DNA of 64,000 nt from Fragilaria crotonensis (lineage: Eukaryota > Bacillariophyta > Fragilariophyceae > Fragilariales > Fragilariaceae), in NCBI GenBank assembly GCA_022925895.1, contig JAKSYS010000005.1, positions 248,001 to 312,000 of the forward strand. Direction: 5' to 3'. This document shows positions 18,576 through 24,785 of the stretch, piece after piece. Position 1 is the stretch's first letter, and each line of letters begins with the position of its first letter. Below the pieces are notes generated by a model, which worked only from the letters and a program-made list of their open reading frames with translations, was not told the origin of the DNA and made no database searches. The position numbers and the translations under genes were made by a program.

Positions 18576-19442
18576 ATGGCGGACATGACAGACGATCATT
18601 CTGAGCTAGAGAATCAATCACAGAGCGACATTCTCTCTGATGGGTCCCTTTCCCCGACAAATAAACCTGAACAATCTACCTTGGCAGCATCCTCGAGTGA
18701 TGTTTCTGAACCACAAGGCATGCCCGTTGGAGACTCGCAGGACACAGCATCGGAAAATTCCGACCCGATAGATCCCATTCTAGATCTGCTCGAATTCTCG
18801 GAAGATGTCATGTGTCCCGATGTGTCGAATATCTTGACTCGACAGCTTCAGGGAAACAATCCGACACCAGTTCTTTTGGAATTGGCGCGTTTCTTTCGAG
18901 CTCAAGCCTGCCTCCTCCGTGAACAGGCCAAAATACTGGATGAATTGGCGATTCGTGATACTATGCCAGGTCAGGATGAAGATCTCGACGATTGCCTTTA
19001 TCGGGGTCGGGTGACTCATCTTGTCAAACTATCTCATGATGCCATGATGGCCACACATGACCGCATCGATGCGCTCGAGGACAGTGTGTACCCCTGGAGT
19101 GAAACGTGGTGCGTAATCATGGATTGATTATCAAATATCATTGTTGTTGTCATCTAGTACTGAATATCCTTCTTCCATCTGAAGTGGCAAAGTCGAGGGA
19201 AAGAAATTGTGCAAGAAGAGGACCAGGCCGGTCAATCGGTATACAGCCTTTCTCCATATGAATTTAAAGTCATGTGGGCTGAAGGTGGTTCACGGCAAGC
19301 CATCTTCAAGTCTTTGGCAGCGCAATGGAAGACCTTGGACGAAACCGAGAAATCAAAGTACGATGAGTTTGCCGTGGCAATCAATAGGGAGAAGGCTGCG
19401 CGAAAGCAATCAAGTAAAAGGGCGAAACTCGATGAAGGGTAA
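18576..19442 (+). CDS. HMG-box-like protein with acidic N-terminal region (two exons)
   Basis: Exon 1 is about 18576-19112 and exon 2 about 19185-19442; the intron uses GTAATC and an AAG acceptor and keeps phase 0, which I infer. The first 60 residues are acidic and Ser-rich, then a helical region (LLELARFFRAQACLLREQAKILDELA, coiled-coil-like). Exon 2 carries an HMG-box-like segment: SPYEFKVMWAEGG, FKSLAAQWKTLDETEKSKYDEFA, and a basic tail KAARKQSSKRAK. HMG boxes bend DNA in chromatin. The N-terminus lacks an NLS before the basic tail. The family beyond HMG box is not recognised. Confidence 0.6.
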
Positions 19443-20585
19443 AGATTGAGTTTCTTTGGCACCGGTGGTTCGCTGATGTCATATCCTAGCCTATTTATGG
19501 TTCAGAAATCTACATTTACGTAGAGAAATGGGTGTCCATACCGGCTTGAGCCTCGGAAGGCGTCCGTTGTTTGTAAGCCGCGGACGACCGTTTCGGCTAA
19601 TGACTGTTGTTGTTAAGATAGCACCGAAGGGATTTCCTGTTGGCGCAACTGTGTTCATCAATTCAGTGATGTTGAGGATCCTAGGATCGTGTCCCCGAAA
19701 TCCATATTCGCTCTACCAACGTACTGAACCGATCTGAGTTTGACCGTCCTCCAATATGGAAGAACGTTGGGAATGAATTGGCTTGAGTTCACTGTCACAT
19801 TGTGTGCTTCGTCTTAAGGTATTCAATGTTGAATCGTTATCTCGAATGATTGATCAAATGAAACATGTCTCCCAGTCAATCAGTTCGCATTGGGTGCACG
19901 GATCGTTTGAAACTACTTGGACTTAGGATGGCTCAACGTCGTCCCATGCAGTTATAGTGTGAATAAAAAAACGAATTGAATTGTGTTTCCGTCTCCTACA
20001 GGGCAAGCTTGGTGCCAGCAACATCAGAAACATGAACAGGAGGGAGCGGGGTAAAAGTGGGCTCTTGAATACCTAAATTGAGACTGAAGGTGGGGCGCAA
20101 TGCCGGTCCCATCGGAACTGCTTGCTGTTTTGAAGATGTTCTGACCAATTCTCGGAATTCGAGCTCTCCAACCAGTAGCAAAAGGGAAATGCTGACAATG
20201 AGGTGCAGTGCCAACTTGCATGCCTACTGGACCGCAACCACCTCCCGCGTTTCGATCTCTCCATGCATTGCCAGATATTCTGTGGCGTTGTTATCGTGAC
20301 ACGAACGGGAAATGGATAAATCAGACACACGCTACAAAGCCATCACATACACCTTGGGAAACGCTTTTCCCTTGGATGACCCAAATGTACGAGCATCGTT
20401 CGGTTATCCTGTTACAACCAACAAGGTACGAAGTCGAGGCTAGGTGAACCTGTGCGGCGCTGGTGGGAATGCCAAAGACTTCTCTGTCCGGTTCATGTCA
20501 ACCACTTGCCGCGTGGTGACTCGTGCATAAAGCGACTGAAAATCCTTAAGATAAACTAATTTATTCAAACACAGGATACACCGCC
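19443..20585. other. Intergenic, no gene seen
   Basis: Openings of 65-85 codons on both strands (19528-19737, 20024-20447) overlap each other and lack domains. I see no repeat or RNA gene. Confidence 0.4.
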
Positions 20586-23197
20586 TTATGGCGGTTGAAC
20601 ATCAACGTCAACTTCTCTTCTCCTCACTTTCCTTTGCCTATGCCGGGGGTGACTGACGTTTATTTGGATCATGGTGTCAAAGTCAATTTCATACGTCCAC
20701 ATCTTGCCCTTGAACCTCTGGGTACTCAAAGGTGAAACATCATTTGTGTATGCCCGGTAAGCCGATTCAACGATTGCCTGCGACTGTGATGCAATAGGGT
20801 GCCATCCATCATCTTCATATTCCCACACAAAGGTCTTATCATCATCGGCGGTCGACGTGTTAGAGCCCTCTTCCGACGGAAAGCTACCTCGTTGCCATAG
20901 TGGCGGTGCAACTAGTCTCGCCACATCTTCCTTACACTTGTATGGAGTACGAGCCGGGTCTCTCTCCCCCCTGTAGTACCTAACCAAATAGTTTGGATAT
21001 GCTCGACCATTTTCATAAACAACCCAAATGTGCGAACCGCCCGTCCATCCAGTGACTGTATTATATTTCATACCCGGACGTGGATGAATGGGCGGAACTG
21101 TCAATGCACTGCACTCCGCCTTCTTTGTGGGGCTCTCATCGCGGTTCATTTCAACTGCGTTCCCAACAAGAAGTTTTGCAAGAATCATCTCTCGTTCGTC
21201 ACTATACCGTGTCGAATTTTCGTCAGGCTTGAAGGCAAACGTGTGTGAGTAGGAGCTTTTGGTGGCAAAATAGAGACCCCACCCCCAGAACCCTTTACGG
21301 GAATATTGCATCATGAATCCGTCATGCTTATCACTGTATATGACTGACGGTTCCAGGGAGGACGTGCCGTGCCAGACGTCGAGCTCTGTGTCGTCAATTC
21401 CGTTCATCGCAAACCTATTTTTGTGGAAGGAGTAATAGTCCCACAGCTCCTTGTTTTGGACACGCCACAACTTCGAGATCCATGCGTCTTCCATGCTTTT
21501 TCGAAGCTTCCTAGTCACGCTCCAATACTCTTCATATTCTGGAAGGACCTCAATGACAAGACCTGCTGAAGTAGACCATGTATCTGGTACTTGTACTTCT
21601 TGCAACGGTTCACGCTCGGGCGGCAAGATATTCTGGTAATTCCTTGCGTCCTCAATTCGCGCGTTGATATTTGCGAGCTGCTCACCAATATTGAATATCG
21701 CCTCCAATACCTTCTTCATCTCGTGTTTGTTCTTTCTATCTAACAAATACGTAATCGACAATGCAGTAATTAACGACGCCATGATTGGAAGTACAATGAA
21801 AATCCATATAGGGGTTGAGACGCCAGGCGCATCGTCCAAGGCGGAATGGACAAAGCTGCATTTGGTCCAATTGAGTGGAGTAGTTTGCCAACCAACCTGT
21901 TGTAAACTTCTAAATTCATACTGAGGGTTTGTCCTGAACCGGCCGTTCTTATCAAAAGGATCGCGTCCACTCACACCCGTGAAATTGGTGTTGCACAGAT
22001 TGTCGACCACTGCTGTACCATTATCTCGTCCACACACACTCAATAGAAACAACGCGCGAAGATCAGTGTGGGCTGGGAGTTTATATTCTGCACCGTGTGC
22101 TACCATCACCTCATAGCTGTTGTATCGATCAAGAAATGCCTGATACTTCAGAAAATGTGGACTATGGAACGGTGTGAGTCCCAAGTTGCCGGTACGCAGC
22201 GGCAGCGAAGGAGCATTCCAAGCGTAATTGACCCACCCACCGCTGGCATTCCAGATAGTATCAGGCTGGAAATGCGTTTGGGTTGCAAGGCCTTGAATGC
22301 GGGATGCATGGTCTGGAGTTGCCATTGCCACGATTATTGGGGATTTGACCAGAGGCTTCTTTGTACGCATGCCTTTCAATCCTAGCAGAACTGATTCATC
22401 GCTAAAATCCCCATTTCCTTGGAGGCTGATTGTGTGTGAGTAGGCAATGGTGGTACGTGTCCACGCATTCCCTCCTTCCTCCGGGGTCGCACTATGATTT
22501 CCAACCCATGCTTCCCCAGACTTGGTGATCATATCTCGTGAATAATGGGTGTCCGTGCAAATAACGGAAACGCGATCCCAGCCGAGCGATCGAAACAGTG
22601 CGACAAGAGCGCCAACCTGACCACGAGCGTCGTCGGGCGCGACAGTGAGAAAGAAGTTCTTAAAATCGTCATCATCACTTAGTTGCGATGTTGAACTCAT
22701 CGAAACCACTGGGACGTATTCCAACGCAATCACTCGAGCAACACCTGTTGAAGCGCCAGAGCAGTGGCATCCGATCACGGCATGCGGTATCACGGGATGC
22801 CGATTCGTTCTGTTTTCAACCCAGTCCATGTCGACTGCCGGCGTCTCGTCGAATGTGTCGTTTTTCCAAATCCTGTCAATGACAGTTTCATTGCCCAGGC
22901 GATCATCCCACATTCTATCATCAGGATCATCCAGCACGTCAATATCGGTGTGTAAGATATGAAATCCCAACTCATTGAAGTGTATCAATGCCCCTATCCT
23001 CAAAGGAGATGCCATGCTACTCATACTAATAATTGTAACTAGATTGTAATTGCAATGCGTATCGTTTCCTGGGGCATGCGGAAATCCCTGGTGGTTTCGG
23101 TACTCGTAGCTTCCAAGTCTCCCATATTATGACATACTCCAGTACAGAGGAGAAGTGCGTTTAAACATATCCTCTTTCCCTGTTCGCCAGTACGCAT
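20586..23197 (-). CDS. Predicted receptor: type-1 periplasmic-binding ectodomain, membrane helix, PARP domain, WWE domain
   Basis: Numbering from the ATG at 23024. Residues 7-400 look like a PBP1/ANF-receptor fold: LRIGALIHFN, VIGCHCSGASTGVARVIALEYVPVVS and ALFRSLGWDRVSVICTD are its usual strands. TPIWIFIVLPIMASLITALS (404-423) is one membrane helix. A PARP catalytic domain fills about 505-690: LWRVQNKELWDYYSFHKNR, WHGT (His552), GWGLYFATKSSYSH (Tyr585) and IWVVYENGRAYPNYLVRY, with Ile666 at the third triad site. A WWE domain follows at about 730-805 (VWEYEDDGWHPI, YEIDFDTMIQINV, RHRQRKVRR). ATG 23024 lacks a signal peptide before it. The frame is open upstream to 23126 and includes a hydrophobic NLVTIISMSSMA. 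A possible first exon 23197-23138 joined by a 50-base GTATGT...CACCAG intron to 23087 would supply an ATG. Only this N-terminal exon is tentative. Confidence 0.78.
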
Positions 23198-24785
23198 TGC
23201 CGATCGGTTCGATCTGTTAATGTGCGAATGAAATGTTGCACAAAGATCCTATGTTTGTCGCAGTCGAAATCCGGATTCATGCCTATACACAAGATCTACC
23301 TGGAACCAGTAATACAGATCGTAGACTCTGGGAGGTCCGGTAAAATGACGTTTCTCTCGTAGCTTCTACATGCAATGAATACCAAGCAGAGGTGCGTGGC
23401 CGGACCTTCATGGGACCAGCGACTGCGATTATGTCATAAGTCATAAGTCGTGTGACATCCACTCCGAGCACAAGTATGTATACTAAGTTGAACTGCCGGT
23501 ATCATACGCGTACTATCATATGTACGCTAGACACTCCACTCTCCACTAGTAGTAGAGACTCTCCTCTACTAGAGTAGACTCTAGTAGTAGACTTCTGGTA
23601 CAGATCAGTTCCCACGATCGAGAAACCAGGCCTCCCAATTTTCCTGTCTAAAAAAAAATAAAATTTGCGGCGTCGGTCATCTGCCCTGCTGACTGCTGAG
23701 GAAAAGTATGGACGGAGTCGGCTTGGTCGTGATTTGACCTTTGGCGTGCCATGGACGCCCGTAGCACCTAGTAGTACCTGGTACCAGGGACCAGGGAATT
23801 ATGTCGCTGTACAAGTACTTGTACCTTATACCAATACCTGGTACCATGAAGGAAGCAGGGCATCTCATGTGAACATGTGAACTCAGCATACATACTACTA
23901 CAACGTACAACTACTCAGTCCTGTTTAGCAACCACGAGTCGGCCTGGGAGATGCGGGAAAGTACTCTTTGGAGGTAAACTAGACAGTAGACCGCAGACTA
24001 CTACGGTACACTATATTGTTAACGTACCTTAACCACCCTTACAAATACATTGTACGAATGCGATGTAACTTGTGTCTAAACGGTAGACCTTCATTCGACT
24101 TGCGAACGTGAATCAACCTTCAATATCATACGCCGTGGTGGTACTTGTACTTGAACCTGTTACAAGTACTCCGTGTGGACGAAGCGGATATAGGATATAT
24201 GCGTACACGAGTATTCTATGTTCTATGTGGTATGTGGTAAAAGTACCAGGTACCAGTACTCCTTACCTGTGCCGACAACGTACATATGTTGATCTGTGCT
24301 CTGTTAATTGGTGAATGCATAGTACGTTGGATGTATGAAATATGAACAACTGCATAGAGAGTATTGAATTGTGCAGTACCGTACTGTACCATTGCAGTGG
24401 AATACACGAGTGTTGGTAATCGGCACGCGGGATGCTGCAAGCTGTTTGATGGGATTGGAGCAGCCATTTTCATGCCACGGTTATTTTCATACAGTGCTCG
24501 AACTCCACCATAATACTAGTAGACACTACTACCGCTATGTAGCTCCAGCAGAGAATATAGAGAGGTCTCTACTAATTGAGTTTTGTGGATTACTGGTGCC
24601 GGTGTATTTGGTGGCATATTTTAATACTCGAGTACATGGGAAGGCCTTTATGATGCTTCGTCTTTAGCCAGTGGTGTGCTAGTAGTAGTACACTACTACC
24701 AGGCACCATACCATACCATACAAAACCACTTGTCTTAATAGTAGAACGTGATCTATGTGTTCACCAGGGCTCCTTCCTCGAATCA
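23198..24785. other. Intergenic, gene-poor
   Basis: Dense in GTAC, CTAGTAG and GGTACCAGG words (23520-23620, 23760-23850, 24160-24260). The region includes a 9-base A run near 23651. No gene is supported. Confidence 0.4.

Follow-up and report, generated by a model that had tools for sequence, protein, structure and literature searches.

We describe a gene lying in a 64,000-nucleotide stretch of the genome of the diatom Fragilaria crotonensis (contig JAKSYS010000005.1, positions 248,001 to 312,000, hereafter the window). In our assessment it is fairly probable that its product belongs to a diatom family of single-pass receptor ADP-ribosyltransferases, for which we propose a signalling mechanism. 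The gene is a single uninterrupted frame of 812 codons on the minus strand, from an ATG at 23024 to a stop at 20586 (Table 1). A first-pass annotation had read here one continuous frame, over 20586..23087, joining a PBP1/ANF-receptor-like ectodomain, a membrane helix, a PARP domain and a WWE domain. Its continuity was borne out, with no stop in the window sequence within the 812 codons. Of its extent 20586-23024 stands, but 23025-23087 consists of 63 bases, or 21 in-frame codons, without an ATG. All three domains exceed the curated Pfam cut-offs: ANF_receptor at residues 75-370 (E 1.5e-18, 67.4 bits for a cut-off of 25.4), PARP at residues 498-683 (E 1.1e-11, 45.1 bits for 26.7) and WWE at residues 732-802 (E 1.7e-11, 44.8 bits for 21.1). 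The membrane helix was likewise recovered, as one hydrophobic segment (residues 406-424) between ectodomain and PARP. NCBIfam gave no match for the window protein, and for its relative P0008 a single match far below cut-off, to an amino-acid ABC transporter binding protein.

Comparison by sequence with solved structures placed the ectodomain closest to the CaSR and mGlu receptors, and the PARP part closest to PARP14 (chain 3goy, E 2.1e-12), PARP15 and PARP12. Searched alone, the WWE part matched the WWE domain of TRIP12 (9bkr, E 6.2e-4), the sole match at E up to 0.1. In fold searches with the ectodomain the highest Z scores went to mGlu and amino-acid-binding proteins, and Foldseek also matched 1dp4 and 1t34, ectodomains of the ANP receptor; the model of P0008 likewise supports a Venus-flytrap ectodomain. 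Structure prediction, which had been suggested as a check, thus upheld the PBP1 (Venus-flytrap) fold. The fold-search results were taken up by the ectodomain, so that support for the PARP and WWE folds comes from sequence matches and from the confidence of the AlphaFold2 (AF2) model, in which a helix spans residues 406-474 and the PARP blocks mostly score over 90. Residues Q888 and N890 of the WWE domain (P0008 numbering) are nearly invariant in our alignment A3, and the domain is likely to be an ADP-ribose reader.

The active site and the membrane topology were examined on an alignment of 54 hand-chosen proteins. H552 and Y585 are invariant, as is the Gly following the histidine (54/54 in each case). 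The third triad position, set by alignment to PARP14, where a leucine stands, is V in 39 proteins, I in 12, L in one and a gap in two, and is I666 in the window protein; all 52 readable rows thus have V, I or L, and glutamate, the PARP1-type mark, is absent from the window protein and from all 52. An H-Y-E triad marks polymerases and H-Y-hydrophobic marks mono-transferases. Poly-ADP-ribose polymerisation as the expected chemistry was rejected from this third residue. A transmembrane helix occupies the same position in all 54 proteins. In the window protein no lysine or arginine precedes the helix and five lie in the 15 residues after it, and such an excess after the helix is found in 54 of 54 proteins, which favours a cytosolic PARP domain. 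Hydropathy revealed no second transmembrane helix in the window protein, so that a class C G-protein-coupled receptor (GPCR), which requires seven, was rejected; no guanylate cyclase domain was matched in it by Pfam at E up to 1. The helix lies before PARP, unlike the C-terminal membrane anchor of PARP16. The receptor interpretation of the first-pass annotation is partly supported: by the order of the parts, the predicted ectodomain fold and the single helix, but not by a clear secretion signal in the window copy.

The relatives (numbered P0001 and so on) form a set of 121 proteins, namely the window protein and 120 others, all obtained in searches with family members, so that frequencies within it are biased. 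The first search found at least 8 relatives, 40-69% identical in the alignment and covering 93-100% of the query, and all 8 contain the same three Pfam families; a search with the P0008 ectodomain found at least 43 proteins, and one with its PARP-WWE part 99. The first and the ectodomain searches scored only the candidates sharing most words. Domain order was assigned with our own hidden Markov models and a hydropathy scan. The complete order, ectodomain, transmembrane helix, PARP and WWE, occurs in 57 of the 121 proteins, the window protein included (56 of the 120 relatives); 16 lack the WWE domain, 19 are cut in mid-PARP and 29 belong to 13 rarer types. The ectodomain and the N-terminal half of PARP stand together in 98 of 121. 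Of the cut proteins, 15 have ...WG as their end, two continue into other sequence there and two lack the motif. These ...WG ends match the point where the frames of Fragilaria paralogues on contigs C94 and C299 stop at an apparent short intron, and most of the cut proteins probably come from gene models that break off at such an intron.

Named members come from Fragilaria, Helicotheca, Pseudictyota (listed as Triceratium), Seminavis, Cylindrotheca and Conticribra, so that the search for this domain order in other diatoms, also suggested at first pass, was successful beyond Fragilaria. The three member taxa that were looked up are all within Bacillariophyta, and the named genera include both centric and pennate diatoms. 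P0042 (COSAG) may come from another lineage. P0008, P0012, P0014 and P0044 combine the three Pfam families with labels of MMETSP, a transcriptome project. A scan of prokaryote genomes with two short peptide patterns gave 18 pattern matches and no relatives; a bacterial origin was rejected on this weak evidence.

Some members depart from the common build. In P0038 and P0044, of which P0039 and P0049 are cut versions, WWE and a stretch that looks by eye like SH3 lie between the transmembrane helix and PARP; the predicted order of the cytosolic part is thus rearranged in this sub-family. Our own model missed the WWE domain of P0044, which Pfam finds before PARP. P0111 (1131 residues) has a Peripla_BP_6 ectodomain, a transmembrane helix, PARP and a WW domain in place of WWE. 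P0118 (1026 residues) has a CUB and EGF-like ectodomain followed by a related juxtamembrane region and PARP start, its frame ending in mid-PARP. Such different ectodomains on a similar PARP module suggest that receptors in general may use it as a plug-in.

We searched the Fragilaria crotonensis assembly (62.1 Mb, 881 contigs), in which the window locus is C658. Profile searches gave 6 matches for PF00644 and 9 for PF02825. Joined with protein searches, and leaving out C49, they define 8 PARP+WWE loci, a count that other intron-split PARPs may escape since the search runs exon by exon; PF00644 itself missed C299 and one C94 locus, and found the other C94 locus below cut-off only. Six of the 8 are of receptor type: the window gene and five further paralogues (C328, C843, two on C94, and C299), which we pair with P0002 (C328), P0006 (C843), P0020/P0052 (C94) and P0053 (C299). 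The other two, C89 and C41, have WWE first and no ectodomain was found in them. The PARP domains of the paralogues on C94 and C299 are interrupted at the GRG motif by an apparent short intron, which the window, C328 and C843 copies lack. An in-frame stop immediately follows ...WG, so that translation of an unspliced transcript would end within PARP and yield a truncated receptor. At C94:3634-4701 an ectodomain-like sequence contains a stop codon, and no PARP part was found near it; it may be a pseudogene. C49:3500-8500 aligns to window positions 19025-24054 over 5.0 kb without a mismatch, differing by 23 indels that lie mostly in short runs. It looks like an assembly duplicate of the window locus, easily taken for a broken gene, and was rejected as a second gene or pseudogene. 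The genome also contains 6 macro-domain matches, possible erasers or readers, and 21 ANF_receptor matches, with other such loci on C230, C227, C6, C112 and C405.

Selection was estimated by the Nei-Gojobori ratio of nonsynonymous to synonymous substitution rates (Ka/Ks), overall and in segments of 60 codons that leave the last 32 codons outside; the values carry no significance test. Between the window gene and C328 the ratio is 0.37 overall, 0.45 in the ectodomain, 0.45 in the transmembrane helix and coil, 0.20 in PARP and 0.37 in WWE, and it is below 1 in 12 of 13 segments. At the joint of ectodomain and cytosolic part (residues 361-480) it is about 0.5. C328 and C843 give 0.30 overall and values below 1 in 13 of 13 segments, and for the PARP part each of three paralogue pairs gives about 0.20. 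Among the 46 of the 54 proteins that had sufficient coverage, distances in the ectodomain correlate with those in PARP (r 0.67, matched by 0 of 2000 permutations), and the chain seems to have evolved mostly as a unit.

On this basis we propose the following mechanism. In the family, a signal peptide would send the N-terminal Venus-flytrap domain outside the cell, where it would bind a small ligand and close around it; the fold neighbours lead us to guess at an amino acid or something similar. Transmitted through the membrane helix and the juxtamembrane helix, probably in a dimer, the change would control how active the cytosolic PARP domain is or where it lies. With NAD+ as donor, PARP would mono-ADP-ribosylate the receptor itself or neighbouring proteins, and the C-terminal WWE domain would bind ADP-ribose-type ligands, recruiting partners or giving feedback. 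Of this scheme the data themselves give the order of the parts, the predicted ectodomain fold, the single helix with its positive-inside pattern, the H-Y-hydrophobic triad, Ka/Ks mostly below 1 and the correlated divergence; the outside location in vivo and every step from ligand binding onward are inferred. Whether diatoms possess a whole class of ligand-gated single-pass receptors that signal directly by mono-ADP-ribosylation, with a WWE domain of the same chain as reader, is in our judgement evenly balanced.

Several observations weigh against the proposal. With C843 as outgroup (791 sites), the window copy has 109 lineage-specific residue changes and C328 only 30; in the ectodomain the numbers are 67 and 14. 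About 9 residues, part of an ectodomain helix, are gone beside the YAAETVDAIL of the relatives, and the adjoining residues 301-360 form the segment with Ka/Ks above 1 (1.24), a value that the alignment there may inflate. A Cys common to the 8 first relatives is Phe, and the GRG motif carries R582W, where 52 of the 54 aligned proteins have R or K. No in-frame signal peptide was found in the window frame or its 63-base upstream extension, nor a signal-like start in P0002-P0006; a simple hydropathy rule finds such an N-terminus in 23 of the 54 aligned proteins and not in 31, many of which are metagenome-contig gene models whose starts may be wrong. The predicted template-modelling scores (pTM) of AF2 are only 0.51 and 0.55, so that the models predict neither how the domains are placed nor a dimer. 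A hydrophobic 52-codon open reading frame (ORF) at 23197 could be joined through a 65-nt intron (23039-23103, GT..AG). Upstream similarity to C328 is no better than that of shuffled sequences (51 of 300 reach it), and C328 has no counterpart to this ORF; an upstream signal-peptide exon in the window is a guess.

The alternative that survives best takes the window copy for a decaying or sub-functional paralogue of a real receptor-enzyme family, one that no longer arrives properly at the membrane or has ceased to sense ligand. The missing signal peptide, the excess of changes and the altered residues all speak for it. On the other side, the frame is open throughout, the PARP part keeps an intact triad and a Ka/Ks of 0.20, and P0002-P0006 also start without a signal, so that an upstream exon may have been missed. 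We grant this alternative a substantial chance, somewhat short of even; the window copy is a fast-evolving paralogue whose ligand sensing may be lost or altered. It is rather unlikely that the family is a membrane-anchored scaffold in which PARP, inactive as in PARP13, is a binding module together with WWE: PARPs with a hydrophobic third residue do include inactive ones such as PARP13, but PARP13 is reported to lack the triad histidine, and the invariant H, Y and Gly and the low PARP Ka/Ks in three paralogue pairs speak against this reading. Still less probable is a cytosolic domain that serves chiefly as a stress or death switch by consuming NAD+, rather than as a modifier of specific targets; PARP-fold enzymes in general can hydrolyse NAD+, with nothing specific to this family, but a likely ADP-ribose reader follows PARP in 57 of 121 proteins. 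Two adjacent genes, or a chance fusion by assembly error, are scarcely credible and were rejected, for although the C49 duplicate shows that indel errors do occur in the assembly, the complete order recurs in 56 of 120 relatives from several sources, transcriptome-labelled ones among them, and the genome contains five further paralogues, with no stop in the frame and with Ka/Ks below 1 in 12 of 13 segments and about 0.5 at the joint.

The receptor-PARP gene lies among ordinary eukaryote-like genes: of the 31 window ORFs of at least 180 residues, 10 were scanned, and they include VTT, RRN3, U-box/C2, PAP2, DHFR, RING and GT90 matches, one sub-threshold thioredoxin-like match and two without match.

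Table 1. Features of the receptor-PARP gene in the window (pLDDT, per-residue confidence of the AF2 model).
Feature	Position	Strand	Evidence
Receptor-PARP, complete open frame, 812 residues	20586..23024	minus	ORF; relatives and paralogues
Ectodomain, PBP1 / Venus-flytrap fold, residues about 5-390	21855..23012	minus	
Single transmembrane helix, residues 406-424	21753..21809	minus	hydropathy 2.43; K/R 0 before, 5 after
Juxtamembrane helix, residues 425-474 (low confidence; may form a coiled coil in a dimer)	21603..21752	minus	secondary structure; sequences; pLDDT 44-69 in blocks
PARP catalytic domain, residues 487-690	20955..21566	minus	Pfam PARP; PARP14 chain 3goy; AF2
H552, triad residue 1 (HGT motif)	21369..21371	minus	H in 54/54 aligned
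Y585, triad residue 2 (GLYFA)	21270..21272	minus	Y in 54/54 aligned
I666, triad position 3, mono-ADP-ribosyltransferase type	21027..21029	minus	V 39, I 12, L 1, gap 2 of 54
WWE domain, residues 732-802	20619..20831	minus	Pfam; same place in genome PF02825 search; TRIP12 WWE match
Candidate upstream exon, signal-peptide-like start, hydrophobic core ICLNALLLCTGVC	23104..23197	minus	hypothetical, by eye

In the available passages of Citarelli 2010 (PMC2964712), Phaeodactylum tricornutum and Thalassiosira pseudonana are listed without PARPs. Those of Perina 2014 (PMC4245714) report two or more PARPs for Thalassiosira oceanica but not one for T. pseudonana, and describe no receptor-PARP of this build. 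In the accessible part of PMC8125044, PARP homologues of E. huxleyi rise under a bacterial quinolone, and such homologues were not seen in the genomes of phytoplankton unaffected by it. We found no receptor-PARP in the literature searched (most subscription papers and bioRxiv lay outside it), and within that scope the earlier remark that no receptor of such build had been described holds; the family is apparently large and undescribed. Of the 8 PARP+WWE loci that we found in F. crotonensis, six have the build of a membrane receptor. If active, these proteins would write outside signals as ADP-ribosylation in one step, and would form a large set of candidate diatom receptors for amino-acid, bacterial or mating signals. 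If true, this would be a receptor output new within the literature searched, beside kinase, cyclase, channel and G-protein coupling.

Receptor guanylate cyclases, such as the natriuretic peptide receptors, share with the diatom family the ANF_receptor ectodomain, one transmembrane helix, a juxtamembrane helix and a cytosolic enzyme; their output is a kinase-homology region and a cyclase, whereas here it is PARP-WWE. The mono-ADP-ribosyltransferases PARP14, PARP15 and PARP12 (clade 3) resemble the window PARP in sequence, in their H-Y-hydrophobic triad and in carrying WWE in the same protein. They occur as soluble or peripheral proteins in which WWE precedes PARP and macro, RRM or zinc-finger parts are also present, whereas in the diatom family WWE mostly follows PARP and a receptor ectodomain and transmembrane helix are present. 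PARP16, the transmembrane PARP of the endoplasmic reticulum, has a cytosolic catalytic domain and is not known to carry a ligand-binding ectodomain or a WWE domain. Like the diatom proteins it is a membrane-anchored predicted mono-ADP-ribosyltransferase, but its helix is C-terminal and it belongs to clade 6 (PMC4245714, available passages). The same passages mention transmembrane regions in sponge and rhizarian clade-3 proteins, where no ligand-binding ectodomain is named, and describe plant RCD1/SRO proteins, which also unite WWE and PARP-like domains but have WWE first, an RST domain and no receptor part, and are reported as lacking activity. Class C GPCRs (mGlu, CaSR, GABA-B), diatom ones among them in a paper whose accessible part deals with GPCRs (PMC3727952), share the Venus-flytrap ectodomain; they have seven transmembrane helices, whereas the receptor-PARP has one and a catalytic cytosolic domain. 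We therefore call the receptor plan known, the enzyme known and their joining new.
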